Source: an uncultured Bacteroidales bacterium
GTDB lineage: Bacteria; Bacteroidota; Bacteroidia; Bacteroidales; UBA932
Assembly: GCA_900320185.1 (NCBI GenBank)
Contig: ONRD01000008.1
Span: forward strand, 40,799 to 104,798
DNA length: 64,000 nucleotides
Direction: 5' to 3'
Shown here: in pieces, positions 3,333 through 22,228 of the stretch
Numbering within the stretch: position 1 is the stretch's first letter
Layout: each line of letters opens with the position of its first letter
The notes under the pieces: model-generated
Told to the model about the DNA's origin: nothing
Database searches by the model: none
What the model saw: only the letters and a program-made list of their open reading frames with translations
Position numbers and translations under genes: made by a program

Positions 3333-3500
3333 GGGCGACGCCCTGGGCCCCCTGTCTACAAGGGGCGATGATTGATTGTCGGGACACAAGGTCCGAACGG
3401 TACGATAGTTGATAACTACTCCGGTCGGGGCAGCCCTGACGGACCCGGTAAAGGAAAGACGGGCCGCCCTGCAACAAGAAACAATTCTATTATCTGAAAA
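3333..3500. other. Intergenic region, no gene seen
   Basis: 168 bases between the GH92 gene and the amidohydrolase. There is an imperfect GC-rich inverted repeat just after the GH92 stop (about 3335-3370), but no T-run and no clear TAnnTTTG box. No coding signal is seen. Confidence 0.4.
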
Positions 3501-4052
3501 ATGGAAAAACTCAACCATCCGGCTATCCTGGTCGTCGACATGCTCAACGACTTCGTCACAGGCGCACTCGGCTGTGACCGTGGAAGGGCGATAGTCCCCG
3601 CTACAGCACGTCTCCTCAACGCTGCCCGTGAAAAGGGCGTTCCGGTTATCTTCTGCAACGACGCCCACATCAAGGGAATCGACCGCGAGCTGAAAATCTG
3701 GGGCGACCATGCCATCGCCGGCACTCCGGGAGCCGAAGTGATCCCTGAACTGGGGCTCTGCGACAAGGACTACGTGGTCCCCAAGAGGCGCTACAGCGGC
3801 TTCTTCCAGACCGACCTTGACATCCTGCTCAAGGAACTCGGAGTACAGACCGTGATCATCACCGGCCTCCACACGCATATGTGCTGCCGCCACACCTCAG
3901 CCGATGCTTTCTGCCTCGGCTACGATGTCGTCGTCGCCAAGGAGGCTACCAACTCTTTCACGGAGGAAGATTACCTGGGCGGCCTCGCCTACCTGAAGAC
4001 CTGCTACGGAGCCGACGCCTATTCGAACGACGAACTGATCGCCGCATTCTGA
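3501..4052 (+). CDS. Cysteine hydrolase, isochorismatase/nicotinamidase family
   Basis: 183 residues with the Asp-Lys-Cys triad of the isochorismatase-like fold: Asp13 in VVDMLNDF, Lys95 in VVPKRRYSGF, and Cys128 in GLHTHMCCRHTSADAF. The residue before the catalytic Cys and the cis-peptide region fit family hydrolases acting on amides or vinyl ethers. No signal peptide is present, so it is cytoplasmic. The substrate could be nicotinamide or another small amide; the sequence does not decide. Its 3' end overlaps the convergent GH78 gene by 34 bases. Confidence 0.88.
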   Translation: MEKLNHPAILVVDMLNDFVTGALGCDRGRAIVPATARLLNAAREKGVPVIFCNDAHIKGIDRELKIWGDHAIAGTPGAEVIPELGLCDKDYVVPKRRYSGFFQTDLDILLKELGVQTVIITGLHTHMCCRHTSADAFCLGYDVVVAKEATNSFTEEDYLGGLAYLKTCYGADAYSNDELIAAF

Positions 4053-6211: not shown

Positions 6212-6280
6212 GGCGGAAAATGTTTAATTACCGTGGGAGCGGACATGGGACTGAACCCCTGGAGCAAAGTCCGTCCATCC

Positions 6281-6313
6281 CAAAGGTAATCATTATTCCC
6301 GTCAAGTCCCAAG
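6281..6313 (-). promoter_or_regulatory. Predicted Bacteroidota promoter for the GH78 gene
   Basis: On the minus strand TACCTTTG (6288-6281) matches the -7 box TAnnTTTG. A CTTG at 6313-6310, 21 bases upstream, can serve as a weak -33 box. Transcription would start about 65 bases before the GH78 ATG. Confidence 0.5.
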
Positions 6314-6363
6314 GGTGACCGGCCATTTTGCCGTCATTTCTACAAAGAGTAAAGGGTTTTTGT

Positions 6364-6371
6364 TATATTTG
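6364..6371 (+). promoter_or_regulatory. Predicted -7 promoter box for the GH99-like operon
   Basis: TATATTTG matches TAnnTTTG and lies 45 bases before the ATG at 6417. No convincing TTTG -33 box is found at 17-23 bases, so this rests on the -7 box alone. Confidence 0.45.
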
Positions 6372-6416
6372 TCTATCGCCACATCCTGGAACAGATTTTA
6401 ATACATAACGATTCTC

Positions 6417-7589
6417 ATGAAAAAATCCTTGATCGCCTTGGCCTGCATCCTCGCCCTGGGCATCTGCGCAAAGGCGCAGCAGAAACAAAAGTACGACGTA
6501 GCAGCCTACCTGTATCCGGCATACGCCTATAACGATCCGCGTCTCCGTCCCTTCTGGCCGTCGGGGATGGGTGAATGGGAGACAGTGATGACCATGCAGC
6601 AGCGGAATCCCGGCCACTACTGGAACCGGAAGCCCCTGTGGGGTCCTGTCAACGAAGCCGACCCGGCAGTGATGGAAATGGAGATCGAACAGGCAACCCG
6701 CCACGGGGTCAACGTCTTCATCTTCGACTGGTACTGGTTCGACGGAAGGCCGTTCATGGAGACGACCCTCACGGAAGGCTTCCTGAAGGCGGCCAACAAG
6801 GACAAGATGAGTTTCTACCTCATGTGGGCCAACCACAATGTGGAAAACTACTGGGACACCAGGATCTCGTACCTGGGAGAACACAACATCATCTGGAAAG
6901 GTGGAGTGGACAGGGAAGAATTCGAAAAGATCTGCCGCAGGAACATCGAGATGTTCTTCAAGCAGCCCAACTACTACAAGATCGACGGCAAGCCCGTGTT
7001 CATGATCTACGAGGTTAGCACCTTCATCGAAGGCCTCGGCGGAGTGGACCAGGCCGTGGACGCCCTGAAATGGTTCCGCAAAGAGGTCAAGAAGGCAGGC
7101 TTCCCGGACCTTGAACTCCAGTTCACCATGTGGGATTCCCAGTTCAACTACAGCGGCTTCGACGCGGCCAAGACCGAGCGTCCAAGGGATGCGTTCATGA
7201 AGCAGCTCGGATTCAACAGCATGTCGCACTACCAGTTCTGCCACTTCATCAATGTCGATGACGACTACCAGAAGATCCTGGACCAGGCGTACAAGGAATG
7301 GGACAGGCTGGAGACCGAATTCACCCTGCCGTATTATCCCCATGTCAGCATCGGCTGGGACAACAGCCCCAGGACAAAGGTAAGCGCCGTGTCGAGGGAC
7401 AACACTCCGGAACGGTTCGAAGGCGCCCTGCGCAAGGCGAAGGCCTGGCTTGACGCCCGCCCCAAACACCACCCGCTCATCACCATCAACTCCTGGAACG
7501 AGTGGACGGAGACCAGCTACCTTGAGCCCGACGACAAGTACGGCTACGGCTATCTGGAGGCCGTCAGGAAAGTATTCGTGGAAGAGTAA
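6417..7589 (+). CDS. Secreted GH99-like / WbsX-type protein
   Basis: 390 residues with a cleavable signal peptide (KKSLIALACILALGICAKAQ). The mature protein has the WbsX/GH99-like TIM-barrel pattern: YLYPAYAYNDPR, VFIFDWYWFDGRPFMETTL, MWANHN, KPVFMIYEVSTF and ITINSWNEWTETSYLEP. GH99 enzymes are endo-alpha-mannosidases; many GH99-like proteins sit beside polysaccharide genes without a proven activity. This one is exported and first in an operon with DUF6067 and DUF5107 proteins (18-base gap to the next gene), so a glycan-degrading role is inferred. The catalytic glutamates have not been confirmed here. Confidence 0.85.
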   Translation: MKKSLIALACILALGICAKAQQKQKYDVAAYLYPAYAYNDPRLRPFWPSGMGEWETVMTMQQRNPGHYWNRKPLWGPVNEADPAVMEMEIEQATRHGVNVFIFDWYWFDGRPFMETTLTEGFLKAANKDKMSFYLMWANHNVENYWDTRISYLGEHNIIWKGGVDREEFEKICRRNIEMFFKQPNYYKIDGKPVFMIYEVSTFIEGLGGVDQAVDALKWFRKEVKKAGFPDLELQFTMWDSQFNYSGFDAAKTERPRDAFMKQLGFNSMSHYQFCHFINVDDDYQKILDQAYKEWDRLETEFTLPYYPHVSIGWDNSPRTKVSAVSRDNTPERFEGALRKAKAWLDARPKHHPLITINSWNEWTETSYLEPDDKYGYGYLEAVRKVFVEE

Positions 7590-7607
7590 CCCCAATAGGC
7601 ACACACA

Positions 7608-10600
7608 ATGGAATTACAAGGAAAGGGCCTGGTGGCAAAGGGTATCCTCGCTGTCCTTGCAGCGATTGCCATTGCAGGCTGCGCAGGCAGGACGGCCGGC
7701 TACCCCGACGGGGAAAGCCGCTACGGGGAGTTCGCCCCTGACGGGATACCGTTCCGCGTGGCGGACTCCAGCTGGACCATCGACATGAGAGGCAACCACA
7801 GGGCCGTGGTCTGCGTTGAAGACACTTCCGCAGGAGCCGTCCTGGCAAGGCTGCCATGGAGGCGGCCAGACCTGCAACCGGACTCGAAGAAGGTGGTGGT
7901 GACGGACGCATGCGACTCCGAGGTCACGGACGTGCTGGTCACGGAACTCACCCCGGAAGCAGGAGAAGTCATCTTCCGCCCTGCCGCCGGTGAAGGCACC
8001 TATTACATCTACTACCTGCCCTACAAGTGGCAGACCTGGTACATCAACGTGTCGGACTACCTTCCGGCTGAATATTCAGCCGACCCCGCCTGGGCGGAGA
8101 AAGCCGCCTCCGGGAAGGAAGGCCTGCCCCCTGCAAGGGTGGAATGCTTCGAAAGCGCCTCGAGGTTCAATTTCTGGACCCCGATGGGCCTGACGGCCAC
8201 AAGGGCCGAGACCGAAGCGCTAAGGGAAGCCGCCGGAAGGGACATGGTAGTGTTCCCCGAAGACAGGGCTTTTCCCATACAGTTCTCCAGGTACCTTCCC
8301 GCAAGGTGGACAAAAGTCCCGGAGGCATCCTTCAAGGGGCTGGCCCTCAGGGACGAGTACTATGCCTGGCAGCTTGGAGTCTGGGCGGCACGGAAGGACC
8401 TCCGCAACGTCAGGATCAGTTTCGACGGGCTCCGCAACGGCAGCAGCCTGATCCCTGCCGAAGAGATGACCTGCTTCAACCTTGAAGGGACGTCATGGGA
8501 CGGAAGCCGCCTGGACTTCAATGTGGACGTTCCGAAGGACAGGGTGCAGGCGATGTGGTGCGGAGTGATGATCCCGCGGGATGCCCGGCCGGGCACCTAC
8601 CATGGTACGGCCGTCGTTTCCGCCGAGGGCGTCGAGCCGCAGACGATATCCTTGGAAATCAAGGTTTCCGGCAAGGTCATCGAAGACCATGGGGATTCCG
8701 AGACATGGAGGCATTCACGCCTCCGCTGGCTCAACTCCACCATAGGGTTGGACAACGAACCCACCGCGAGGTTCAAGGAGATGGAAGTCTCCGGAAGCCG
8801 GATCGAAGCCACGGGGAAGAGTGTCGTCATAGGCGGCAACGGAATGGTCGGCAGCGCTGAAGTCAACGGTATCGGCATCCTGTCTTCCCCGATGAGGCTT
8901 GTGGTGGAACGGCAAGGCGGCACCACCGTGTTCGATGCCGGCGGGGCCGTCCCGCAGAAGAAGGCCGCCGGACTCGTGGAGTGGACCGCCTCGGGCGAGA
9001 AAGACGGCATCGGGTTCGAGCTCGAAGGGAACATGGAGTTCGACGGGCACCTGCACTTCAACGTCAGGATGACCTCGGACGAGGAAATACCCGTGAAGGA
9101 CATCCGTCTCGAAACCGTCTACTCGGCAGCCGCGTCCGAATACATGATCGGAATCGGATTCGACGGGGGCTACCGGCCGGAGAGATATTCATGGGACTGG
9201 AAGGGACCCTTCGACAGCTACTGGACTGGAGGCGCCAGGGCAGGCATGCACACCGAGTTCAGGGGCGGGACCTACCACGGTCCCCTGCTCTTCGCTTTCA
9301 ATCCACCCCCGCCCCCATTCTGGGACAACGACGGTAAGGGACGCATCCTTGTGGATGGCCGGAAAGGGAAGGAAGCCACCGTCACCGCCTCCACCGGACC
9401 TTGCAGCATAGGGAAGGTCCCCAAGGAGATGGAGTTCGCCCTCACGCTGACTCCGGCAACGGAGCCGGATCCGGCGAAACATTTCACGCAGAAATACTTC
9501 CATGCGGCTCCACAGGATTTTGACAGGGCCTCCGAGGACGGGGCGAACATCTGCAACATCCACCATGGCCAGAACCTGAATCCCTACATAAACTACCCCT
9601 TCATAGTCAGGGACTCCCTTTTCGCTTTCATAAACCACGAGCATGCCGAAGGGCGCATGGTGAAGCTCTACTACACGATGAGGGAACTTTCCGCACATTG
9701 TGAAGAACTATATGCCTTCCACAGCCTCGAACACCAGATAACGGCCCCTGGAGAGGGCGGAGGCAATGCCTGGCTCTGCGAGCATCTGGTCGAAGACTAC
9801 TGGCCGGCATGGTACACATCCCTCGACCATTTCCGGAAAGGAGATTCCGACCCGGCCCTGCAGATGGTAGGCTACTCCCGCTACATCAATTACTTCCTCG
9901 AAGGGGTCAGATGGATGGAACAGCATTACGACCTGGACGGGCTCTACATGGACGACCTGTCCTGCGACAGGGTCACCATGAAACGGCTCCGGAAAATCCT
10001 CGACAAGTACCATGAAGGCGCGCTTATCGACATGCATTCCAACACTTGGTACTCGAAGGGTCCGGCGAACCAGTACGCCGAGTTCTTCCCCTACCTGGAC
10101 AGGCTGTGGTTCGGGGAGAGTTTCCGCTACGACGACATGACCCCCGACCAGTGGTTCGTCACTTTCTCGGGAATCCCGTTCGGCCAGATGAGCGAAATGC
10201 TCCAGGACGGAGGGAACCGCTTCCTCGGGATGGTCTATGGCACCACCGCCCGCCATTCATGGGAGGGCGTAGACAACAGGAAGTCTCCGGTCCCCATGTG
10301 GAAATTCTGGGAGAAGTACCGGATACAGGAAGCCAGGATGCTTGGTTACTGGGATCCGGCCTGCCCTGTGAAGACATCCGACCCCGAGGTGAAAGCCACC
10401 GCCTATGTCAAGGACGGGGAAACCATAGTCTCCATAGGCAATTTCAGCGGCAGGGACAAGACCGTGCGGCTGGACATCGACTGGGAGGCCCTCGGAATCG
10501 ACAAGGCATCGGCCTCGATCACCGCTCCCTTCCTCAAGAACTTCCAGGAGGAGACAACCTTCAGGCCGGGAGACCCGATCCCCGTCAAGGCCAAGGAAGG

Positions 10601-10628
10601 CTGGATGCTGCTGCTAAGACAAAAATGA
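7608..10628 (+). CDS. Large lipoprotein, DUF6067-like putative glycoside hydrolase
   Basis: 1006 residues. A lipoprotein signal ends at Cys25 (AIAGCAG). The N-terminal part is beta-rich with galactose-binding-like stretches; the second half holds a TIM-barrel-like core with LDGLYMDDLSCDR and LIDMHSNTWYS, which resemble strand ends carrying catalytic acids, and a final beta domain with VSIGNFSGRDKTVRLDI. This matches the DUF6067/GH123-related architecture as I recall it, but I know of no proven reaction. It is the second gene of a three-gene operon and is followed after 40 bases by the DUF5107 gene. Its glycosidase role is inferred from architecture and context. Confidence 0.75.
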   Translation: MELQGKGLVAKGILAVLAAIAIAGCAGRTAGYPDGESRYGEFAPDGIPFRVADSSWTIDMRGNHRAVVCVEDTSAGAVLARLPWRRPDLQPDSKKVVVTDACDSEVTDVLVTELTPEAGEVIFRPAAGEGTYYIYYLPYKWQTWYINVSDYLPAEYSADPAWAEKAASGKEGLPPARVECFESASRFNFWTPMGLTATRAETEALREAAGRDMVVFPEDRAFPIQFSRYLPARWTKVPEASFKGLALRDEYYAWQLGVWAARKDLRNVRISFDGLRNGSSLIPAEEMTCFNLEGTSWDGSRLDFNVDVPKDRVQAMWCGVMIPRDARPGTYHGTAVVSAEGVEPQTISLEIKVSGKVIEDHGDSETWRHSRLRWLNSTIGLDNEPTARFKEMEVSGSRIEATGKSVVIGGNGMVGSAEVNGIGILSSPMRLVVERQGGTTVFDAGGAVPQKKAAGLVEWTASGEKDGIGFELEGNMEFDGHLHFNVRMTSDEEIPVKDIRLETVYSAAASEYMIGIGFDGGYRPERYSWDWKGPFDSYWTGGARAGMHTEFRGGTYHGPLLFAFNPPPPPFWDNDGKGRILVDGRKGKEATVTASTGPCSIGKVPKEMEFALTLTPATEPDPAKHFTQKYFHAAPQDFDRASEDGANICNIHHGQNLNPYINYPFIVRDSLFAFINHEHAEGRMVKLYYTMRELSAHCEELYAFHSLEHQITAPGEGGGNAWLCEHLVEDYWPAWYTSLDHFRKGDSDPALQMVGYSRYINYFLEGVRWMEQHYDLDGLYMDDLSCDRVTMKRLRKILDKYHEGALIDMHSNTWYSKGPANQYAEFFPYLDRLWFGESFRYDDMTPDQWFVTFSGIPFGQMSEMLQDGGNRFLGMVYGTTARHSWEGVDNRKSPVPMWKFWEKYRIQEARMLGYWDPACPVKTSDPEVKATAYVKDGETIVSIGNFSGRDKTVRLDIDWEALGIDKASASITAPFLKNFQEETTFRPGDPIPVKAKEGWMLLLRQK

Positions 10629-10668
10629 CGGGATGACGCCCGGCAAGGCGTCCATCCCACAAACAAGA

Positions 10669-13497
10669 ATGAATATGCTAAAGAAGACCACCGTCCTGGC
10701 GGCCCTGCTGCTTGCCACGACGCAGTTGCTGGCCGGTCCCGGAAAGGCCCGGCTAACGGAAGGAATGACCTCCATGCTCACCTATGGATTCTCGGACCCC
10801 GACCCGGTCGCGAATCCGGATGCCTTGCAGTATCCTTATTTCAGGTTCGACGGCTACGCCTCCCAGGGCAGCCCGAAGGAGTGGAAGACCGTCACCCTGG
10901 AGAATGACTGGATCTGCGTCACCGTGTTCCCGGAAATCGGGGGCAAGGTCTGGGGTGCCGTAGACAAGACCACAGGCAAGGAATTCATCTACTACAACCA
11001 TGTGGTCAAGTTCAGGGACATCGCGATGCGCGGGGCATGGACGTCCGGCGGCATCGAGTTCAACTTCGGGATCATCGGCCACGTTCCGTCCACCGCCACT
11101 CCGGTGGACTACACGACACGTGAAAACGCCGACGGATCGGTCAGCTGCATCATAGCTTCCTGGGAGCTCCTGACCAGGACATGGTGGACGGTGGAGGTAA
11201 GGGTCCCCGCCGACAGGGCCAGCTTCACGACCGAAGCAAGGTACTTCAACACATCCTTCCTTGAGCAGCCCTACTACAACTGGAGCAACGCCGCCTTCAA
11301 GGCTGGAGGAGACCTGAGGCTGAGAATGCCCGGAGACAGGTACATCGGCCACGCAGGGGATCCGCATCCTTTCCCCATGGATGCCCGGGGAAGGGACCTT
11401 TCGAAGATGAGCGAGAACGCCTTCGGCAATGACAAGTCATACCACATCATCGGAGGCAACGGCGACTGGTTCGGGGCTTGGTGGGAGGAAGACGGATTCG
11501 GATTCGCCCACTGCGCCAGGCAGGACGAGAAACTGGGCAGGAAGTTCTTCTGCTGGAGCCAGTCCAGGGAAGGCGGCATCTGGGAAGACCTCCTGACCGA
11601 TTCGGACGGCCAGTATGTGGAGATGCAGGCCGGGAGGATGTTCAACCAGCCTCTGCAGGAAGAGAGCATCAACACTCCGTTCAAGCACCACTCCTTCCCT
11701 CCGATGGCGCAGGACAGCTGGTCGGAGTGTTGGTATCCGGTGGAGGACATAGGGGCCTACGATGCCGCATCGGCTTTCGGGGCGCTCACAATCGCTCGCA
11801 CCCGGGACGGCAAGGCCACGTTGAGGATATCCCCGGTCTGCGGAGGCAGGAAGACAGTCTCCGTCACCCAGGAAGGCAGGACCGTCTTCTCCGAGGATGT
11901 GACCTTCAACCCGCTTCAGACCTGGTCTGCAGACGTCGACCTCCCTTCGGACGGTTACATCAAGGTCTGCATCGGAGAGCATGAGCTGGTGTACGACGAG
12001 GACCCCGGAGAAAGGACGACGAACCGGCCGGACACGATGCCGGAAGACTTCGACTGGGGTTCTGCCTACGGGCACTGCCTGAGGGGAGAGCAACTGATGA
12101 ACGTAAGGCACTACAAGGAAGCCGGGAAGGAGTTCCTCGCAAGCCTGGAAAAAGATCCGTGGTATGCTCCGGCGCTCCGGGGGATGGCATCTTTCTGCCT
12201 GCACTGCGGAGAGTGGGAAGAGGCTTTCGAATATTCACGGAAAGCCCTGAGGATCAACACCTACGATCCGGAGGCGAACTACCTCTACGGCCTCGCTGCA
12301 AAGGCGACCGGAAGGCTGGTGGAAGCCAAGGACGGCTTCTCCATCGCCACCTACTCCCAGTCATTCAGGGATGCCGCCTACGCCGCCCTTTCAAGGATGG
12401 CAATCGCCGACGGAGACTGGAACCTTGCCCTGGCATATTCCTCGAAAAGCCCCTCTCTCTTCTGCGGACTGGCCGGGGAGGTGGCCTTGAGGCACCTTGG
12501 CGACAAGGACGCCTGTAGGGCTGTCCTCGACAGGTACGGATCGGAGCTTCCGCTGTTCCCCTTCTTCAATTTCGAACGCAGCCTCCTGGACGGGAATCCA
12601 TCATCGTTCCCGGAGACCCTGAAGTGCGAACTTCCGCACGAGACCCTTCTGGAGATGGCCCTGTGGTACCTGGACTGCGGCCTTGAGGATGAGGCCCTGA
12701 CCCTCTGCGGGATGACCGGCTACCCCTCCGCCACTTACCTGCAGGCCTACATCCTGCGGGACAGGGACCGCGGGCGGTCCCTCGAACTCCTGGAGAAGGC
12801 AGACGCCGCTTCGCCCGGGTTCGTCTTCCCGTTCAGGCCCGAAATGCTCGAAGTCTTCGACTGGGCGGCTGCGACGGGCGGTTCCTGGAAGAGCGGTTAC
12901 TATCGTGCCCTCATCCTTTGGCGCCATGCACGCAAGGATGAAGCCCGGGACTTGATGGAGGGCTGCGGCGACAAGCCGGACTACGCCCCCTTCTACCTTA
13001 CCAGGGCCAGGCTCCGCAAGGGTGAAGGCAGGCTGCAGGACCTGAGGAAAGCCGAATCCCTGTCAGGAGACTGGCGCACTGGAAAGGCCCTGGTCGATTT
13101 CCATTCCGCTGCCGGCGACTGGGATGAAGCCTGCAGGGACGGGAAGAAGTACTTCCGGAAATATCCCGACAAGTTCGAACTCGGACTCGCCTATGCCGAC
13201 GCCCTCTGCGAAGCCGGTGAATATGCAAAGTCGCTGAAGGTACTCTCAGGGCTTGAAGTCATGCCCAAGGAGGGTGCCAGGAGGGGTCACCAGATTTACC
13301 GGAAGGCCTGCCTTGGGAAGGCTCGCAAAGAGTTGGAAGAAGGCAAGTTCAATGCCTGCATCAAGTCTGTCGAGGCCTCCAAGCTGTGGGATGAGAGGCT
13401 CGGGGTCGGGAAGCCTTACGATGAGCTGATCGACTACTCAGAGGAGGAAGCCATAATGAAAGCGGCACGGGAAAGGAACCGTACCGCCTTCAAGTAA
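10669..13497 (+). CDS. DUF5107 domain protein with C-terminal TPR repeats
   Basis: 942 residues from the ATG at 10669; an earlier frame start at 10633 would add 12 residues before an otherwise good signal peptide (KKTTVLAALLLATTQLLAG), so the internal ATG is preferred. Residues up to about 440 match the DUF5107 pattern (WICVTVFPEIGGKVWGAVDK, MRGAWTSGGIEFNFG), a beta-sandwich resembling carbohydrate mutarotase/hydrolase folds. The rest is helical TPR-like repeats (AGKEFLASLEKDPWYAPALRG, WEEAFEYSRKALRINTYDPEA). It ends the GH99-like operon. The enzymatic function of the DUF5107 half is not known to me. Confidence 0.82.
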   Translation: MNMLKKTTVLAALLLATTQLLAGPGKARLTEGMTSMLTYGFSDPDPVANPDALQYPYFRFDGYASQGSPKEWKTVTLENDWICVTVFPEIGGKVWGAVDKTTGKEFIYYNHVVKFRDIAMRGAWTSGGIEFNFGIIGHVPSTATPVDYTTRENADGSVSCIIASWELLTRTWWTVEVRVPADRASFTTEARYFNTSFLEQPYYNWSNAAFKAGGDLRLRMPGDRYIGHAGDPHPFPMDARGRDLSKMSENAFGNDKSYHIIGGNGDWFGAWWEEDGFGFAHCARQDEKLGRKFFCWSQSREGGIWEDLLTDSDGQYVEMQAGRMFNQPLQEESINTPFKHHSFPPMAQDSWSECWYPVEDIGAYDAASAFGALTIARTRDGKATLRISPVCGGRKTVSVTQEGRTVFSEDVTFNPLQTWSADVDLPSDGYIKVCIGEHELVYDEDPGERTTNRPDTMPEDFDWGSAYGHCLRGEQLMNVRHYKEAGKEFLASLEKDPWYAPALRGMASFCLHCGEWEEAFEYSRKALRINTYDPEANYLYGLAAKATGRLVEAKDGFSIATYSQSFRDAAYAALSRMAIADGDWNLALAYSSKSPSLFCGLAGEVALRHLGDKDACRAVLDRYGSELPLFPFFNFERSLLDGNPSSFPETLKCELPHETLLEMALWYLDCGLEDEALTLCGMTGYPSATYLQAYILRDRDRGRSLELLEKADAASPGFVFPFRPEMLEVFDWAAATGGSWKSGYYRALILWRHARKDEARDLMEGCGDKPDYAPFYLTRARLRKGEGRLQDLRKAESLSGDWRTGKALVDFHSAAGDWDEACRDGKKYFRKYPDKFELGLAYADALCEAGEYAKSLKVLSGLEVMPKEGARRGHQIYRKACLGKARKELEEGKFNACIKSVEASKLWDERLGVGKPYDELIDYSEEEAIMKAARERNRTAFK

Positions 13498-13523
13498 GGG
13501 TCTGCTCCCCTGCGCCCGGGAAG

Positions 13524-15215
13524 CTACAGCGAACGCAGCAGGGCCTTGGATTCGTTGATGAGGGCAATGGTCCGGGCGTCTTCGAAGGTATCCCAGTCGA
13601 TGTCCCTGAACTTAGAGAGCTGGGCGTCGATGAGCGCGACCTTGCGCGGATCGCCTTCCTCCCTGATAATCCGGATCTTCTCGAAATCCTGGATACCCTC
13701 CAGCAGCCTTTCGGAACGGATGCTGGGGCCGTCCGGGTAGACCAGGTAGCAGTCGCCGGCCCTCCAGGTGCGGAAACGCCCGTCCACGCACGGCTCCTTC
13801 ACCCAGCTGTTGTAGGCCCAGCGAAGATAGCCGTCATAGCCGGCTGCGGCAGCATACCATCCCAGGAAGACCGACTCCGCTGTCGGGGAATCCAGGAAGG
13901 TATTGGGACGCTGCGGATTGCAGCAGGTGTAGAAGGTAACCTTGTTGCCCTTGGCGTGATGCGAGGAGAGCTGCTGCTCGGTGAGCAGGGGTTCACGGAA
14001 TGCGAAACTGATGTCGTACATCCTCTCCGCCACTTCGGGGCCGTAATAATTCACCGCCCCTTCGATCCTGTAGTCCTTGTCCGCCTTGTGGACGATGGCA
14101 TAGGCATGTTCCAGAAGGTCCTTCGGGCGCTCGTCCATGGCGATGCAGGTCTTTTCGAACCAGCCCTTCTCCCTTAGATGGCGTGCGAAATCGGTCAGGA
14201 AAGGGAGCTGGTACTCTTCATATTCCCTGGAGCCCGGGTCCATCTTCTCGGAGCGGGTACAGTTCAGCGCCGCGTCGAAATACTCGAAGGTCAGGTGCCA
14301 CGGCAGGATCGAATAGCAGTCGATCTGCTCGGTTATGCCACAGCTCATCATGAACTCGACCCACCTGTCGAAGACGGTGTAGTCGTACTTCCAGCTGCCG
14401 TCGATACCCTTGAATTTCCCGATCATGCTCTCGAACGGATCCTCCGTCTGGCTGTTCCAGGGATGCTGGAAGATGCTGGCGGTGATGACCTTCTCGCCGC
14501 AGGAGGCAAGGTATTCCATTATGGGGCGCATCTTCGCGAAATGCTCCTCGCTCCACAGGGGGACGTTGAAATAACGGGCGACGGCATAGGGATTCTGCCA
14601 AAGGTCCAGGTGGAAACTCCAGTCGGAGGGTTCCGGCAGGACCCGCTTGCCCACCTCAAGGACACAGGGCACCTGGAGGACCTTCCCGTCGCAGTCTGCC
14701 GTGACCGTACCCTTGTACTTTCCAGGGACGGCATCGGCGGGGATGCGGATGTCAAGCCACACGGGACGTACGGTGCGGGAATCGACCTTGAATCCATCCT
14801 GGCAGGCCAGCCTGTCGGGACTGAGCACCGGATCGCCCTGGAACACATGCTCGCCTATCACGTAGGTTACGAAGTATTTCGAGACCGCCGAAGAGGGTAT
14901 CACGTTCTTCCCGGACTTGAAATCGCTCGCCACGACACGGAAACTCTCCACGTCGACAGGTGTGGCAAGGACCGCCTGGGCAAACACCCTTTCACCGCGC
15001 CAGCCCCTGAGCACCAGGGATTTGGACAAGACGGGGACTTCATCCTTCTTGTATCGTGAGTCGACCGAACCCCATCCGAAACGGATGTCTTTCATCCCCT
15101 CCCAAGCCATGTCGGAGGAAGGATTTGGATCATCCCGCTCGACGACGGGCATCTGGGCATGACAGAGCGAACAGGCCACCAGCAATACGGCGGCAAAGGA
15201 AATGATACTCTTCAT
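13524..15215 (-). CDS. GH123-type (DUF4091) glycoside hydrolase, secreted
   Basis: 563 residues from the ATG at 15215; a TTG five codons earlier (15230) is less likely because the ATG begins a clean signal peptide (MKSIISFAAVLLVACS). The N-terminal beta domain is followed by HLDLWQNPYAVARYF and the catalytic pair Asp361-Glu362 in IAMDERP. GH123 enzymes use such an Asp-Glu pair in substrate-assisted cleavage of beta-N-acetylgalactosaminides. The C-terminus has YLRWAYNSWVKEP, typical of the family. It is convergent with the DUF5107 gene and last in a minus-strand run behind DUF4465 and DUF975 genes. GalNAc specificity is a family inference. Confidence 0.85.
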   Translation of the reverse strand: MKSIISFAAVLLVACSLCHAQMPVVERDDPNPSSDMAWEGMKDIRFGWGSVDSRYKKDEVPVLSKSLVLRGWRGERVFAQAVLATPVDVESFRVVASDFKSGKNVIPSSAVSKYFVTYVIGEHVFQGDPVLSPDRLACQDGFKVDSRTVRPVWLDIRIPADAVPGKYKGTVTADCDGKVLQVPCVLEVGKRVLPEPSDWSFHLDLWQNPYAVARYFNVPLWSEEHFAKMRPIMEYLASCGEKVITASIFQHPWNSQTEDPFESMIGKFKGIDGSWKYDYTVFDRWVEFMMSCGITEQIDCYSILPWHLTFEYFDAALNCTRSEKMDPGSREYEEYQLPFLTDFARHLREKGWFEKTCIAMDERPKDLLEHAYAIVHKADKDYRIEGAVNYYGPEVAERMYDISFAFREPLLTEQQLSSHHAKGNKVTFYTCCNPQRPNTFLDSPTAESVFLGWYAAAAGYDGYLRWAYNSWVKEPCVDGRFRTWRAGDCYLVYPDGPSIRSERLLEGIQDFEKIRIIREEGDPRKVALIDAQLSKFRDIDWDTFEDARTIALINESKALLRSL

Positions 15216-15226
15216 ATGTCTTGGAA

Positions 15227-15895
15227 TCAATAGTCAATCCTGTTTATCTGCGCCTCTCCCTTGAGCGACTCGTAAAAGGCAGCCCTGGTGGTGTAGACGT
15301 AAGGTATCAACCACAGGAATCCGAGCCCGAGCGTCAGGATGGACAGCAGCGCCCATCCTACCATCCCGAGGTACAGCAGGAAAAGCCGGGTCTTGTGACC
15401 CTTCATCATCACTTCGCTTTTCTTCATGGCCTGATACGCAGTGAGGGAGGGCTCTTCAACCATTATGAAGTCCGTCATGTCGTAGGCAAGTCCCTTCACT
15501 ACGCCGGGGACAATGAGGAGGACCGTCCAGAGCATGACGCAGACGTACCTGAGCAAAAGAGTCCAGGCATTGTGGAGCCAGTTCGCGAACGCAATCTTGA
15601 ACTCATTGGAAACCAGATTGTTGTCCCCATTCGTAAGGAGAATCCTCAAAGCATTGGAAAGACCGGCTTCAAGCGGAAGGACTACCAGCAGCATCACCAG
15701 CCAGGCAGTGGTCGACAAAGACCTGTCGAACAGGGATGGAGTCCACCCGGGACTCATCCAGAAAGCCATGCTGAAGTAGGGTATCTCGAAGACGGCGACG
15801 ACCAGCAAGAGCAAGAACGTCGCCAGCACTGCCTGCGGCCAGTTGCCCTTGAGCGAAGCCAGGGCTTCGTCCTTCATTACCCTGTTGGTCTTCAT
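15227..15895 (-). CDS. DUF975 family integral membrane protein
   Basis: 222 residues with about five or six hydrophobic segments (AVLATFLLLLVVAVF, TTAWLVMLLVVLPLEAGLS, CVMLWTVLLIVPGVVKGL, LFLLYLGMVGWALLSI). DUF975 hallmarks are the N-terminal MKDEALASLKGNWPQAV and the C-terminal YVYTTRAAFYESL. No function is established for the family. The start codon overlaps the DUF4465 stop as ATGA (15892-15895), so the two are probably translated together. Confidence 0.85.
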   Translation of the reverse strand: MKTNRVMKDEALASLKGNWPQAVLATFLLLLVVAVFEIPYFSMAFWMSPGWTPSLFDRSLSTTAWLVMLLVVLPLEAGLSNALRILLTNGDNNLVSNEFKIAFANWLHNAWTLLLRYVCVMLWTVLLIVPGVVKGLAYDMTDFIMVEEPSLTAYQAMKKSEVMMKGHKTRLFLLYLGMVGWALLSILTLGLGFLWLIPYVYTTRAAFYESLKGEAQINRIDY

Positions 15896-16581
15896 GACTT
15901 GCGCTCGAAGGAAATGTCGACGGTGAAGTTGTCCATGCAGAAATAAAGGGGAAGTTCCGCACGGCTGCTCTGGATGTCGAAGGCCTTGAGTTCGTTCCCG
16001 GTGTAGTCGACGAGGTAGAACTCCGAAGTCCCTACAGGCTTGCCCTGGTTGTAGCCGGTAGCGACGACCTTGTAATAGTCCCCCGGCATGAAATAGCCGG
16101 AAGCCACGAGGCTGGCTATGTGGGCGGTGTTGTTTACCGCGGCCCCTTTGAGGAAACAGGTGTAGGTGGTGGCATTGGCAAAGTTGAACCTTATGTCATA
16201 CTCCGGCATGAAAGACGGGTTCGGGTTCTGGTAGAAGTAGGAATAGACGACGGACCTGCCGCTGCCGCCCTTTCCGCCGGCGGAAGTGGTCATGGTCGGG
16301 GCGCCTTCACTGGTCAGGTAGGCCTTTTTCTTGGAGAGGGCGAACCCGCCGTGGAAACCCTGCTCGTCCACACCGGCGCAGAGGAAGGAGATATTGTCCA
16401 TCAGGATGTAGGCAGCTCCGGAGAAAGTGCTGTCGGTTTCGTTGAAGTAGTCGTTGTACTGGGCAAGTGCGAACTCTTCAAGAGATGCGGTGAGGGTGTA
16501 CTCGCTGGAGGTCTTTCCCATGCAGGAAGCCATCGCGGCGCACACCGCGACGATGATGATTGGTCTTAACAAGTTTTTCAT
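15892..16581 (-). CDS. DUF4465-like lipoprotein
   Basis: 229 residues with a lipoprotein signal ending at Cys20 (AAMASC). The body contains CAGVDEQGFHGGFALSKKK and YFMPGDYYKVVATGYNQGKP followed by GTSEFYLVDYTG, close to the DUF4465 pattern of Bacteroidota surface proteins, some of which sit near vitamin B12 or glycan uptake genes. No partner of that kind is visible here. The last four bases overlap the DUF975 start. The function is unknown. Confidence 0.72.
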   Translation of the reverse strand: MKNLLRPIIIVAVCAAMASCMGKTSSEYTLTASLEEFALAQYNDYFNETDSTFSGAAYILMDNISFLCAGVDEQGFHGGFALSKKKAYLTSEGAPTMTTSAGGKGGSGRSVVYSYFYQNPNPSFMPEYDIRFNFANATTYTCFLKGAAVNNTAHIASLVASGYFMPGDYYKVVATGYNQGKPVGTSEFYLVDYTGNELKAFDIQSSRAELPLYFCMDNFTVDISFERKS

Positions 16582-16658: not shown

Positions 16659-17359
16659 CTACAGCACCACGCTGACGGTACCGATGAACGCCGTCGGGCC
16701 GGTCAGCCAGACATCGCGGACACGAAGGTTCTCTCCCGCACCTTCAGGGATGAAATCCACGCTCAGGGTGGCTATCGCAGCCTTGACATCGTAGAAGACC
16801 CTCTCCCCGTCCCGGGCTCAATGAAATTGACATTCGTCCCCTGAGGGGCGAACAGCGGACTGTACCTCAGGGGCTGGCTTTCCTGGACCACCGGATAATC
16901 GTCCAGGTCCCTGACGAACTTCACGAGATGCCTGGTCCCGGTGTCCAGGAAGCAGGACCTGAGTTCGAGGATCGTGCTCACCTTGTCCACATCCTTCATC
17001 CTTATCCTGACAAGGCCCCCGGACATTATGGCTTCATGTTCTCCGTCCGGAGCCTCGAAACGGACCGGTTCCTCCTCGTTGACGAGGCCGAGGGAGGCCG
17101 CGAATGCGACCATGCACCTTCCGCCGTTGCCGCACATCATCCCGGAAGAGCCGTCAGGATTGTAGAAATCCATCTTGAACGCCGCTCCGGAGCCTTCGGA
17201 AGCATTGCGCAGGAACATCATCCCGTCGGCGCCGAAACCGGTGTGGCGGTTGCACAGATGCCTGATCTGGTCCGTGGTCAGGACCAGGCCGGACTCCCTG
17301 GCATCAGACAGGAGGAAATCGTTTCCGGCTCCATGGTATTTGTAAAAAGTCTCTTGCAT
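16659..17359 (-). pseudogene. dapF: Disrupted diaminopimelate epimerase (dapF)
   Basis: DapF converts LL- to meso-diaminopimelate with two catalytic cysteines. The first 180 or so residues are normal: FYKYHGAGNDF at the N-terminus and the first Cys in MMCGNGGRC. After GTNVNFIE the frame becomes unlike the family and ends at 16772. A second frame continues as DVKAAIATLSVDF and DVWLTGPTAFIGTVSV to a stop at 16659, which is clearly the family's C-terminal strand region. The block expected between them, including the ERG..ET..CGTG motif with the second catalytic Cys, is absent from all frames. The sequence therefore shows a deletion of roughly 30-40 codons plus a frame change. It may be real or an assembly fault. 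It lies 1 base downstream of dapD. Confidence 0.82.
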
Positions 17360-17360
17360 C

Positions 17361-18122
17361 TTATCTGAGCGCTGATTCGAGGGCGACCGAAGCGTCGGTA
17401 CGGTCGTCCCTGTACTTGACTATCACCGGGGTGTAGATCTGTATCCCGGCCTCTTTCCCGGGTCCTTTGGACAAAGGCCTGCTGCCGCACACCACCACCG
17501 CCCGGGGCGGGACTATGGTCCTGCCGTCTTCCGAAAGCGGGATGTAGCGGCCTTGTACGGCGTCGTACAAGGCGGTCCCTTTGGTAATGATGACTCCGGA
17601 GCCCAGGACGGCCCCTTCGCCTATCACCGTACCTTCATAGATACCGCAGTTGCCTCCTATGAAAGCATTGTCCTCGATGATGACGGGAAGGGCCCCGGAA
17701 GGTTCCAGGACGCCTCCTATCTGGGAGGCTGCGGAGATGTGGACATTCTTCCCTATCTGCGCGCAGGACCCTACGAGGGCATGCGAGTCTATCATGGTAC
17801 CCTCGTCGACATAGGCCCCGATGTTCACATAGGACGGGGGCATCATTATCACTGACGGAGCAAGGTACGCCCCGCACCTGACGCTGCTTCCCCCGGGCAC
17901 TATCCTGACCCTGTCTTCAAGGGAGAAGCGCCTCAGCGGCAGGGTGTCCTTGTCGAAGAATGAATATTCATCCCTGGAGAGGTCCTTGAGAGTGCCGGTG
18001 CGGAACCCTTCGAGTATGGCTTCCTTGACCTCGACGTCGACCTTCCAGAGGCCGCCTTCCTTCCTGGCGACCCTCAGTTCGCCGGACTCCAGCCGGCGTA
18101 CGACTTCCTTGAAATCCATCAT
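17361..18122 (-). CDS. dapD: Tetrahydrodipicolinate N-acyltransferase (DapD)
   Basis: 253 residues. The N-terminal helical region (RVARKEGGLWKVDVEVKEAI) and a left-handed beta-helix of hexapeptide repeats (PPSYVNIGAYVDEGTMIDSH, GKNVHISAASQIGG, IGEGAVLGSGVIITKGT) match DapD, the succinyl-CoA-dependent acyltransferase of lysine synthesis. Its presence points to the acylase branch of the DAP pathway, which needs an aminotransferase and DapE. The start overlaps the dapA stop by four bases (ATGA), and its stop is 1 base from dapF, so it is part of a tight operon. Confidence 0.92.
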   Translation of the reverse strand: MMDFKEVVRRLESGELRVARKEGGLWKVDVEVKEAILEGFRTGTLKDLSRDEYSFFDKDTLPLRRFSLEDRVRIVPGGSSVRCGAYLAPSVIMMPPSYVNIGAYVDEGTMIDSHALVGSCAQIGKNVHISAASQIGGVLEPSGALPVIIEDNAFIGGNCGIYEGTVIGEGAVLGSGVIITKGTALYDAVQGRYIPLSEDGRTIVPPRAVVVCGSRPLSKGPGKEAGIQIYTPVIVKYRDDRTDASVALESALR

Positions 18123-18991
18123 AATCCCAATCCTCCCAGAACATTTTCCATGATTCGGAAGGTTTCCTCCGTGGCCTCGGTCAGCGGAAGGCGCATCTCG
18201 GAAGAGCAGAGGCCCAGGATCCGGAGGGCGGCCTTGACCGGGATGGGATTGCTTTCCACGAAGCAGGCATCGAACAAGGGGGCAAGTTCGCCGGAAAGCC
18301 TGCCGTACTCCCCTTCGTCCCCGCGGAGCAGGGCATGGGTGAAACGGACCATCCTCGAGGGATCCACATTGGACGCCACGCTGATGACTCCGGCTCCGCC
18401 CGAGAGCACAACGCCGGCGGTCTGGTCGTCGTTGCCGCTGAACACCCTGAAGCCCTCAGGGGCGGCTTCGATTATGCTTCTGATCTGCCCAAGGTCTCCG
18501 GAAGCCTCCTTCACGGCGATGACGCCGGGAAGGCCGGCCACCCTGAGCGTGGTGGCCGCCGTCATGTTCACGCCGGTCCTTCCGGGTACGTTGTAGGCTA
18601 CGACAGGTTTGTCCGCCGCTTCGGAGACGTACTTGAAATATTCAAAGATTCCTTCCTGGGTGGGCTTGTTGTAGAATGGGACCACGACCAGGTAGGCGTC
18701 CGGGCCGAACGGGGAAAGCAGCCGCATGTTGCGTACCGTCGCGGCAGGGGAATTCGAACCGGCTCCCACGACGAGCGGGAGGCTGCCTGAGACCGACCTT
18801 GCGATCTCGAGCAGACGGCATTTCTCTCCGTCTTCCAGGCAGGGTGTCTCCGCCGTTGAGCCAAGCGGGACGAGGAAATCGATCCCCGAATCCACCTGGC
18901 GCCTGACAAGGCCTTCGTAGGCCTCGTAATCGACTTTCCCGTCCTTGAACGGCGTTGCCAGGGCGGTGCCGCATCCTTCCAGTTTTATCAT
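18119..18991 (-). CDS. dapA: 4-hydroxy-tetrahydrodipicolinate synthase
   Basis: 290 residues. It condenses pyruvate with aspartate semialdehyde. The Schiff-base lysine is Lys161 in IAVKEASGD; Tyr133 and Arg138 lie in AYNVPGRTG; the nucleophile/proton-relay threonine loop is GSTAET at 44-49 (a variant of the usual GTTGE). Length and order of motifs are normal. It overlaps dapB by four bases upstream (ATGA) and dapD by four downstream, in the order lysC-dapB-dapA-dapD-dapF. Confidence 0.95.
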   Translation of the reverse strand: MIKLEGCGTALATPFKDGKVDYEAYEGLVRRQVDSGIDFLVPLGSTAETPCLEDGEKCRLLEIARSVSGSLPLVVGAGSNSPAATVRNMRLLSPFGPDAYLVVVPFYNKPTQEGIFEYFKYVSEAADKPVVAYNVPGRTGVNMTAATTLRVAGLPGVIAVKEASGDLGQIRSIIEAAPEGFRVFSGNDDQTAGVVLSGGAGVISVASNVDPSRMVRFTHALLRGDEGEYGRLSGELAPLFDACFVESNPIPVKAALRILGLCSSEMRLPLTEATEETFRIMENVLGGLGL

Positions 18992-19671
18992 ATTCCTTCC
19001 TCCTTGAAAAAGAGTTCCTTGAATTCGTGGGTTCCCTCAAGTTCCCCGGTCATCATGGCCGCGACCACGGCGCCCTGGGCGAAGCCCTTCCTGGAAAAGG
19101 CCTCGTGCTCGAGGGTTATCCTGTCGTTCAGGCCTTCGAAGCCGACGGTGTGTATGCCCGTGACCTCACCGACCCTTACGGAAGCCACCGAAGGGGCGGC
19201 GCCCATCCCGGCCTCGACGGCGGCGGCGAGGGTCTTGGCCGTGCCGCTGGGTGCATCCAGCTTGTGGACATGATGTTTCTCGACGATGTACGGGCTGTAC
19301 CCTCCCGCCTTGCCGAGGTACTTTGAGACGAGGGCTACCGCAGCTTCCAGGACGTTGACCCCCAACGAGAAATTGGAGGAATACACAAGCGGGGTCCCGT
19401 TCTCCCTGAAACAGGAGAGCACCTCCTCCTTGATGTCGTCCCAACCTGTGGTGCCGACCACGACCGCCTTGAACCTGGCGGCGAGGGTGCGGTAGTTGGA
19501 GCGGAACGCCGCGGGAGTCGTGAAGTCTATGCACACGCAACCTGCAGCCAGGGCCGGGTCCACGGAAGCTATGTCCTCGCTCTTCCCGGCGCACTCGATC
19601 CCCCTGGCGGAAAGTTCCTGCTCCACCATGTGTCCCATGCGGCCGTAGCCGCTTATGAAAACCTTAAGCAT
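18988..19671 (-). CDS. dapB: 4-hydroxy-tetrahydrodipicolinate reductase
   Basis: 227 residues, at the short end for DapB. The nucleotide-binding start FISGYGRMGHMV, the middle TTGW, and the signature EKHHVHKLDAPSGTA (His133/His134 and Lys137) identify it. It reduces the DapA product using NAD(P)H in the cytoplasm. The start overlaps the lysC stop by eight bases, indicating one transcript and coupled translation. Confidence 0.95.
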   Translation of the reverse strand: MLKVFISGYGRMGHMVEQELSARGIECAGKSEDIASVDPALAAGCVCIDFTTPAAFRSNYRTLAARFKAVVVGTTGWDDIKEEVLSCFRENGTPLVYSSNFSLGVNVLEAAVALVSKYLGKAGGYSPYIVEKHHVHKLDAPSGTAKTLAAAVEAGMGAAPSVASVRVGEVTGIHTVGFEGLNDRITLEHEAFSRKGFAQGAVVAAMMTGELEGTHEFKELFFKEEGI

Positions 19672-21025
19672 CTTCTTTTCCGAATATGTAGCCGTGGATC
19701 CCCGAGAGCGTACCTGACAGCCGGTCGGAGTCTATCACGAAGTTCTCGCTCATCATGTTCGCGCTCACGTTGGCCAGGTAGACCTTCCCCGAGAGGCTGA
19801 TGACCTTGTCGCCAAGCCCTTCGAACCCGACGATGTTGCGCCCGATCACCGAAAGGATGGCCTTGTCCCTGAAAAGGGTGACCTCCGCCCAGGAACGAAG
19901 CCGCGTCACTGCTTCCTCGAGACACGGGACGTCTTCAGGGATCACCAGGTACACTTCCGATTCGGTAGCCTTGGCAAGCATCACGGGGATCCTTCTGGGG
20001 TAGAGCTCTGCAAATACCTTTCCGAACATGTCGGTGACTCCCTCAAGTTTCGCGGAAGAGACTTTCACGAAGAGTATGCCGTCGCGGAAAGCGACCGATT
20101 TGGGGCCGTCCGGGGATTCATCCCCGCGGATGATGAGAGTGCCTTCGCAGGAAGGGTTCATCGAATTGAGGACCCGGATGGGGATGTTCCGGGAACGGGC
20201 CGGTTCTATGGTGAGGGGATGGAGGACCCTTGCTCCCATGGCTGCCATCTCGGCGGCTTCCTCGTACGAGATCACATCGATCTTGCCGGTGGACTGGACT
20301 ACCCTGGGATCGGCCGTCCTCATTCCGTCCACATCGGTCCATATCTCGACGCGTTCCGCTCCCAGTGCCATGCCGAAGATGGCCGCGGAATAATCCGAAC
20401 CCTCGAACCCGAGGACTGAAGTGGCCCCCGCCTCAGTGGACGCAACGAATCCCTGGGTGACGGTCAGGTCGGTGCCGCGGGACTCGAGCCCGATGATACG
20501 CTTGACGTTAGCCCGGGTGACATCCATCAGCGGACGTGCTGAAAGATAGTTGTCGTCCGTGGTAATCATCCTCCTGGCATCTACCCAGTGGCATGAAATC
20601 CCGCTGGCGTTGAATGCGTGGCTGATGATGGTTGAAGAGAGTATCTCTCCGGTGGAAATGATCCTGGCTTCGCTGCGGGGAGACAGCTCGCCGATAAGAC
20701 AGACTCCTCCGACGAATGTCTGGAGAGCCTTGAGATGCTTCTCGACATCCTCCAGGCAGGCCTGCAGCAATTCGGGACTGCCGCCCAGAAGCTTCCTTGA
20801 AAGGTCGTAGTGCCTCTCCCTGAGCTGGGAGAGAAGGTCCCTGACCACTTCCTCATGCTGGTCGCGGGCTTCGTCGGCGAGATCGCACAGAAGCCGCGTC
20901 ACCCGGGCGAGGGCCGAGACGACTACAAGCGGCCTCTCCCTCAGCCTTTCCCTTACAATGGCGATGACCCTTCCGATCGCAGCCTCATCCTGGACCGAAG
21001 TACCGCCGAATTTCATTACTATCAT
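19664..21025 (-). CDS. lysC: Aspartate kinase (monofunctional)
   Basis: 453 residues. The amino-acid kinase domain begins with VMKFGGTSVQDEAAI and includes TQGFVASTEAG and a WTDVDGMRTADPR block; two C-terminal ACT domains follow (from about residue 310), which in this family bind lysine for feedback control. It lacks the homoserine dehydrogenase domain of ThrA/MetL. It is the first gene of the lys/dap run, 56 bases downstream of the M20 gene. Confidence 0.94.
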   Translation of the reverse strand: MIVMKFGGTSVQDEAAIGRVIAIVRERLRERPLVVVSALARVTRLLCDLADEARDQHEEVVRDLLSQLRERHYDLSRKLLGGSPELLQACLEDVEKHLKALQTFVGGVCLIGELSPRSEARIISTGEILSSTIISHAFNASGISCHWVDARRMITTDDNYLSARPLMDVTRANVKRIIGLESRGTDLTVTQGFVASTEAGATSVLGFEGSDYSAAIFGMALGAERVEIWTDVDGMRTADPRVVQSTGKIDVISYEEAAEMAAMGARVLHPLTIEPARSRNIPIRVLNSMNPSCEGTLIIRGDESPDGPKSVAFRDGILFVKVSSAKLEGVTDMFGKVFAELYPRRIPVMLAKATESEVYLVIPEDVPCLEEAVTRLRSWAEVTLFRDKAILSVIGRNIVGFEGLGDKVISLSGKVYLANVSANMMSENFVIDSDRLSGTLSGIHGYIFGKEDA

Positions 21026-21081: not shown

Positions 21082-22149
21082 TCAGGCAAGGCGTTTCTTT
21101 CCCGTAGCTTCCTTGTAGATGGCGATGTCCTGTTCCACGGCTTTCTCGAGGTCGGACAGAAGGACATGCTCGTCGGGCGTGTGAGCCGTAAGGATCGAAC
21201 CCGGGCCGCAGACAGCCTTCCTCCTGAAACCGGCGAGGTGCGGGGCGTCGCTGCCGAAAGAAGCCGTCTTCACAGGGATTCCCTCCACTCCGCTGAAGAA
21301 GCACATGGGACTGTCGCCGCCGAAGGCACGGATGACGGCGCCGGCCCCGCATATTCCCAGAAGCTTGTTGTGGACGAGGTCGTCCGTCGCGAAAGTCGTC
21401 CTGAAGTAGATGTCGAAAGTGATTTCGGGGCTCAGGATGTTCCTCGGATTGCCGCTCTTGAGCATGCCCACGTTCCAGGTGGTGTCTCCCAGGACCCTGT
21501 CCTTGGGGAAATCCGCGATTTTCAGGAGGTTCATGAACTCGACGAACCGCTCGACAGCGCTGACCCCTTTCTCCGGATAACCCGAGTGGCAGGGTTTTCC
21601 AGGAAGGGTGATGGTGAACGCCTTGGTCCCCTTGCACTCGGAGACGAGGCAGTTGTCGGTAGGCTCGCCGACCAGGACGAAATCCCCACCGGGACAGTCC
21701 CTGGTGTAGGCCTTCGCTCCCTTCGAACCGGTCTCCTCCCCGCTCAGCAGAAGCAGCCCGAAATCGCTGTAGCCCTCCCTGGCAAGGGTGCGGCAGGCCT
21801 CGTACATGGATATCAGCTGTCCTTTGGCGTCGCAGCTTCCCCTGCCCATGACCATCGTGTCGTCAGTGGCGGCGACCGCACCTCCGGGCAGGGTGTCTCC
21901 TTCCTTCACGCAGACCACCTTCGGCCTGATGTAAGGCGGCACGGTGTCCATGTGCGTGCAGAACACGAAGGGCGGGGCACCGGTGCCGGACCAGTCGAAA
22001 AGAAGGTTGGAAGTCCCGTCGCCGACATCGTGACGGTGGACTTCGCAACCGGGGCCCTGCAGGTTTTCAGCAAGGAACCCGGCAAGGGCGGCTTCCGTTC
22101 CGGAGGTGGAGCGGATGCCCAGTATCTCCAGGAAAAAATCAAGGTCCAT
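21082..22149 (-). CDS. M20 family deacylase, probable succinyl-diaminopimelate desuccinylase
   Basis: 355 residues from the ATG at 22149; a TTG at 22176 would add nine residues of poor quality. Metal ligands of the M20 family are all visible: His66 in CTHMDT, Asp107 in GSCDAKGQ, the Glu138-Glu139 pair in LSGEETGSKG, Glu162 in VGEPTD, and the late His in ILTAHTPDEH. M20 members include DapE, ArgE and related acylases, and sequence alone does not separate them well. Placement just upstream of lysC with dapD in the same run favours DapE. Confidence 0.75.
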   Translation of the reverse strand: MDLDFFLEILGIRSTSGTEAALAGFLAENLQGPGCEVHRHDVGDGTSNLLFDWSGTGAPPFVFCTHMDTVPPYIRPKVVCVKEGDTLPGGAVAATDDTMVMGRGSCDAKGQLISMYEACRTLAREGYSDFGLLLLSGEETGSKGAKAYTRDCPGGDFVLVGEPTDNCLVSECKGTKAFTITLPGKPCHSGYPEKGVSAVERFVEFMNLLKIADFPKDRVLGDTTWNVGMLKSGNPRNILSPEITFDIYFRTTFATDDLVHNKLLGICGAGAVIRAFGGDSPMCFFSGVEGIPVKTASFGSDAPHLAGFRRKAVCGPGSILTAHTPDEHVLLSDLEKAVEQDIAIYKEATGKKRLA

Positions 22150-22228
22150 TACACTACAACCGTTAAACTCAATCAAAATCCGTCACCGCCCCGGGAAACG
22201 TCCGGCAAGCGTCCCGGCAGGTACACCG

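Follow-up and report, generated by a model that had tools for sequence, protein, structure and literature searches.

The catalytic cysteines of the epimerase DapF are located in a CGN and a CGT motif (PMC12039745). Escherichia coli mutants in dapF are described as viable and as carrying LL-DAP in the precursors of the wall (PMC9794725, PMC4227774). Within the Bacteroidetes, Tannerella forsythia and Porphyromonas gingivalis are reported to have no DapF and a DAP dehydrogenase instead (PMC6721243). Broken genes in draft genomes can also be spurious, and cases originating from assembly have been documented (PMC11017572). Literature on dapF and lysine in Bacteroidales, and on lysine biosynthesis in Cryptobacteroides, yielded nothing on the gene described here.

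The window, the whole stretch of 64,000 nucleotides that was analysed, belongs to contig C22. The draft genome comprises 49 contigs with 2.28 Mb in total and is 92.78% complete. Its closest relatives among named genomes are uncultured Bacteroidales; many of them were sampled from rumen or gut, and a few bear the name Candidatus Cryptobacteroides. The minus strand carries, in this order, a dapE-like gene, lysC, dapB, dapA, dapD and dapF (Table 1). The first-pass annotation had described DapA, DapB and DapD as intact next to a likely DapE, and this holds: DapD and DapA score above the cut-offs of their models, DapB exceeds both Pfam cut-offs and is slightly below the NCBIfam cut-off, and the DapE-like frame is whole, with matches to ArgE/DapE-type models that all remain below cut-off. 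The neighbourhood includes a run of glycosidase-type genes ahead of the dap cluster (window 1083-15230; GH92, rhamnosidase, WbsX and GH123 types, DUF5107) and a second GH92 gene at 47127-49331. The gene 3' of dapF (15892-16581, minus strand) matches DUF4465 (PF14717); a homologue with 25-35% identity lies near dapF in 46 of 80 relative loci.

Table 1. Position, strand and supporting evidence for the dapF pieces and the upstream genes of the dap cluster (window coordinates).
Feature	Position	Strand	Evidence
dapF N-terminal piece	16814..17359	-	PF01678 5.9e-26; TIGR00652 129.6 bits vs cut-off 114.65, profile 2-193 of 270; 46/46 near-invariant columns kept
dapF join zone	16803..16813	-	Translations, alignment, frame-scan switch 16811/16812, bases of the zone
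Out-of-frame tail of the dapF N-terminal open frame, stop at 16772	16772..16802	-	Translation
dapF C-terminal piece, other frame, up to the stop	16659..16802	-	Alignment to relatives; 5/5 near-invariant columns kept; profile 224-271 of 272, E 1.2e-6
dapD (tetrahydrodipicolinate N-succinyltransferase), intact	17361..18122	-	NF008808 291.7 bits, cut-off 204
dapA, intact	18119..18991	-	TIGR00674 265.7 bits, cut-off 206.15
dapB, intact	18988..19671	-	PF05173 and PF01113 above cut-off; TIGR00036 119.8 bits, slightly below cut-off 122
lysC (aspartate kinase), intact	19664..21025	-	TIGR00657 284.2 bits, cut-off 208.7
dapE-like M20 deacylase, intact, candidate function	21082..22176	-	PF01546 and PF07687 above cut-off; ArgE/DapE models all below cut-off; homologue in 63/80 relative loci

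The locus contains two well-conserved parts of one dapF with a block missing between them, and no second copy was found in the assembly. The open frame that starts at 17359 encodes 195 amino acids and stops at 16772. It includes the first catalytic cysteine block (MMCGNGGRC) and is DapF-like up to residue 182 (GTNVNFIEP), where it departs from the family. From RVFYDVKAAIA onwards, the rest of the gene uses a different frame, which reads RVFYDVKAAIATLSVDF...WLTGPTAFIGTVSVVL and stops at 16659. Thus, a single uninterrupted frame is lacking. The N-terminal frame follows the family before the join zone and the C-terminal frame follows it after the zone; the family block around ETLACGTG is missing in between. 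The CGTG motif was absent from the translations of all three frames at the locus, and the second cysteine block (ACGTG) was likewise not found in the rest of the assembly. A DapF profile with 272 model positions, built from 24 relatives, matched the genome at positions 1-184 and 224-271, both on the contig of the window, and gave no further match in the assembly at E<=0.001. A frame scan by codon usage, with the window as its training set and blind to the DapF family, switched frame at 16811/16812. The bases that fit neither frame firmly, 16803-16813, form a short, C/G-rich zone. The loss of the second catalytic cysteine and the separation of the two parts into different frames, both noticed in the first-pass annotation, were thus confirmed by translations, profile and frame scan. 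Its junction, 16800-16830, could be narrowed to the 11 bases of the join zone. With no frame containing the block, a programmed frameshift was rejected. As written, the gene should not yield the DapF enzyme.

A DapF match was present in 135 loci, three of them the window's own. The 132 relative loci comprise 52 from the genus and 80 from named genomes, each set taken from the top ranks of a longer list; one species may occur twice in the two collections. All of these best-ranked 132 loci carry the CGTG motif. For the analysis of conservation, identical proteins were merged into 97 distinct relative proteins of 240-400 amino acids, with L087 (668 amino acids) excluded. In the part that the window dapF lacks, these proteins carry 35-94 residues (median 44); therefore, probably somewhat more than 100 bases are missing, an upward correction of the earlier estimate of about 100. 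The lost sequence itself is not knowable because the closest of the best-ranked relatives share at most about 63% identical amino acids with the window DapF. The position with dapD and other dap genes is that of a dapF orthologue: among the 80 named loci, some of which end early at contig ends, homologues were found around dapF for dapD (73), dapA (73), dapB (69), lysC (67) and dapE (63). The cluster is on the opposite strand in four of them (L091, L093, L117 and L130). A short direct repeat at the junction was considered as a cause. The 97 relatives shared on average 4.8 bases there, with a longest match of 8, and shuffled sequences 4.5, no clear excess.

Neither part of the gene has an internal stop. 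Among the 97 relative proteins, 66 columns have one residue at a frequency of at least 95%: 46 before the gap, 15 in the missing block and 5 after. The window dapF has kept all 46 and all 5 of those outside the block. The loss of constraint that marks a decayed pseudogene was seen in neither piece. A leave-one-out count and a residual test used the 80 named loci only, with fewer for some genes. In the count, dapF differed in one of 56 columns conserved at >=95% (L to I), in 4/67 for the 90% level and in 11/81 for the 80% level. This last share is reached by 6% of the other taxa. Two other genes of the operon stand out similarly, dapA with 11/131 at 80% and dapE with 3/72 at 95%; in both cases 5% of the others come as high. 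At 80%, lysC (0/151) and dapB (4/118) do not stand out. In the main residual test of the N-terminal part of dapF against the rest of the operon, the mean residual of the window was under those of all 68 other taxa. Restricted to closer pairs, it was under all 53 and under 46 of 47. On a tree of 24 taxa chosen for closeness to the window, the dapF-to-operon ratio of the window branch was 3.08 on the fixed topology, compared with 2.06 for the whole tree, and 2.73 on a free tree. Seven of the 23 other branches of the fixed tree, all short, exceed the 3.08 of the window branch. The acceleration of this part of dapF in the window lineage appears mild and could reflect relaxed selection.

The conserved columns also bear on the age of the break. 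A longer time without constraint should have changed more of the 56 conserved sites. By a rough estimate with an assumed dN/dS of 0.05-0.2, the operon branch length and these 56 sites, dapF has probably spent no more than some 2-5% of its branch without constraint. With the conserved sites kept, the break is taken to be of very recent date or else absent from the organism.

The quality of the contig was assessed with the frame scan and profile searches. The scan check covered 48 frames from 46 segments, with non-coding and most short segments left out. Two frames are the dapF pieces, and four short ones (46-62 amino acids, the rplL region included) look like misplaced segment ends. The scan misplaced rplL as to strand, but the actual rplL frame is intact. 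One segment with two frames (117-1052 and 1083-3329) has a separate glycosidase gene starting with the second. Thirty proteins were compared with NCBIfam. Matches were near end-to-end for dxs, EF-Tu, NusG, L11, L1, L10, RpoB, FolD, PurH, PurD and PurM, extended over long stretches in RpoC and RNase R, and were lacking in four proteins. Twenty frames, these four included, were searched against Pfam; two had no match, and no family was split by a frame change. Frame scan, NCBIfam and Pfam thus revealed no split gene besides dapF within the window.

Another epimerase at work, one of three readings offered by the first-pass annotation, was not supported by the genome. The incomplete assembly (92.78%) yielded no second DapF, and the best match to the DAP dehydrogenase Ddh (TIGR01921) had 12.1 bits against a cut-off of 180.6. 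DapL gave five matches, all below cut-off (best 100.4 bits, cut-off 364.7). The only gene of the alanine racemase family (PF01168) encodes 269 amino acids. A copy of 371-400 amino acids, present in all 21 compared relatives, was not found in this genome, probably owing to an assembly gap. Given this missing gene and the completeness of the assembly, the absences of these enzymes are weak evidence. MurE and LysA are intact and above cut-off. With both present and no replacement enzyme found, a working DapF is expected. A wall with LL-DAP, the second reading, is conceivable given the viable E. coli mutants (PMC9794725, PMC4227774) but was not favoured by anything found in the genome. An arginine in the DNxR motif marks a DAP-type MurE, and the motif of the window's genome is DNSR. 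It was rejected as a pointer to an LL-DAP wall: DNSR occurs in 16 of 19 MurE copies from 18 relatives with and without DapF, next to DNPR in one and DNCR in two. The third reading, a wrong assembly, came out as the likeliest.

Some other genomes of the genus have no DapF match. The survey comprised 131 genomes at a completeness threshold of 93, with the window's own genome (92.78%) included. A DapF profile match was present in 118 of the 131, in G013 as a fragment only, and 13 had none. In a domain-level search of these 13, G013 and two controls, only the two controls exceeded the cut-off; sub-cut-off E-values were 0.0018 for G013 and 0.04-0.22 for four of the 13. All 13 keep MurE. One of them, G052, has a Ddh (G052:C5:91164-92060; TIGR01921, 418.7 bits), which apparently replaces the DapF route. 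The other 12 (G394, G039, G282, G346, G317, G164, G298, G074, G095, G063, G073 and G243) have neither DapF above cut-off nor a Ddh match. One of the 12, G073, was searched almost whole with the proteins of the window and six DapFs from relatives. The scan ran over 2.09 Mb in 116 stretches, and a gene lying across a boundary may have escaped it. DapA, DapB and DapF were not found in the 2.09 Mb. DapD (31% identity) and the DapE-like protein (25%) matched weakly, and LysC (32%), LysA (52%) and MurE (67%) have retained homologues. In this one genome of the 12, it looks as if the DAP route was lost and meso-DAP is taken from outside. Such a pathway loss raises the chance that the loss of dapF in the window is real. 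A third PF01168 match was observed in G013 (G013:C1:512171-512827, in a 363-aa frame); this protein could be a DapF2-like or other PLP enzyme.

An error at the level of assembly or strain is ranked first among the explanations, with a real and very recent deletion next. We consider the error somewhat better than an even bet, and rate it likeliest because both fragments still look selected. The sampled organism would have an ordinary, working dapF. The contig would fuse two correct parts of it and drop somewhat more than 100 bases between them, and the cause would be an assembly or strain-collapse error at the short C/G-rich junction 16803-16813. We infer that the loss arose in the assembly, or in a minor strain followed by the assembler, rather than throughout the living lineage. 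The lack of another split gene in the window was counted for this reading. However, the join has no long repeat to account for a collapse, and the rest of the window is clean, which does not indicate a generally poor contig. The somewhat faster N-terminal part of dapF in the window lineage also speaks against an error, although dapA and dapE stand out as well. A recent deletion, to which we give a serious chance of clearly less than even, accommodates this mild acceleration, together with the clean junction in a window with no other split gene. The sampled population would then have a dead dapF and make LL-DAP. It would live with an LL-DAP wall and slow background epimerisation, like the E. 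coli dapF mutants, or take up meso-DAP or wall fragments from its surroundings, as a first step to the loss of the DAP pathway. The dispensability of dapF in E. coli (PMC9794725, PMC4227774) agrees with such a loss, as do the 13 of 131 near-complete genomes of the genus without a DapF match, of which G073, in the 2.09 Mb scanned, also gave no DapA, DapB or clear DapD. Yet neither part of dapF has decayed, and DapA, DapB, DapD, LysC and LysA are intact, so the deletion would need to have been caught just after it occurred.

There is little support for a wall that has settled without DapF or for an epimerase that took its place. A stable loss in which DapF has a functional substitute, whether DAP dehydrogenase, the PLP-dependent DapF2 or an as yet unknown racemase, is very improbable. 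The existence of DapF2 was put forward chiefly for Staphylococcus (PMC9026213), and the DapF-less relative with a strong Ddh indicates that replacement may occur in the genus. A stable loss should, however, have let the pieces of dapF decay, and they are undecayed; the window's own, incomplete assembly has no Ddh above cut-off and only the short PF01168 gene, instead of the alr-size copies of the relatives. Slightly less probable still is the retention of the 195-aa N-terminal piece in another role, for example as a regulator. E. coli DapF acts on RppH independently of its catalytic cysteines: DapF(C73&217A) still binds and stimulates it (PMC4227774). The conservation of the N-terminal piece would fit such a role, but the C-terminal piece is equally conserved though no longer translatable as part of the protein, and the whole CGTG block is kept in all 132 best-ranked relative loci. 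A further scenario is unlikely, though less remote than these two: a Bacteroidales lineage that has just lost DapF and still makes LL-DAP, with a wall containing LL-DAP or an unrecognised epimerase giving meso-DAP. This would be the opening step of a pathway loss that was seemingly completed in at least one member of the genus.

Both leading explanations have consequences. If the break is an assembly error, it calls for caution with metabolic models from draft metagenome genomes; the loss of a single block would wrongly deny the organism the synthesis of meso-DAP and lysine. If it is real, the first step of the loss of the DAP pathway was caught in a genus in which at least one species is seemingly done with it, and the order of losses becomes testable.

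The window gene agrees with DapF (PF01678, TIGR00652) in sequence, in gene order (dapE-lysC-dapB-dapA-dapD-dapF) and in having the first catalytic cysteine block. It differs in the missing second cysteine block and the broken frame. The E. coli dapF mutants likewise lost DapF but kept the other steps of the succinylase pathway (PMC9794725, PMC4227774). They are laboratory deletions, whereas the window dapF is a gene of a draft assembly. T. forsythia and P. gingivalis are Bacteroidetes described as lacking DapF and using a DAP dehydrogenase (PMC6721243); the window genome has none above cut-off. The DAP route is seemingly gone as a whole in G073, in contrast to the window genome, where the rest of the route is intact. 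The spurious pseudogenes of assemblies share with the window dapF that a conserved gene is broken in an assembly. A difference is that the work in PMC11017572 concerns frameshifts and internal stops.
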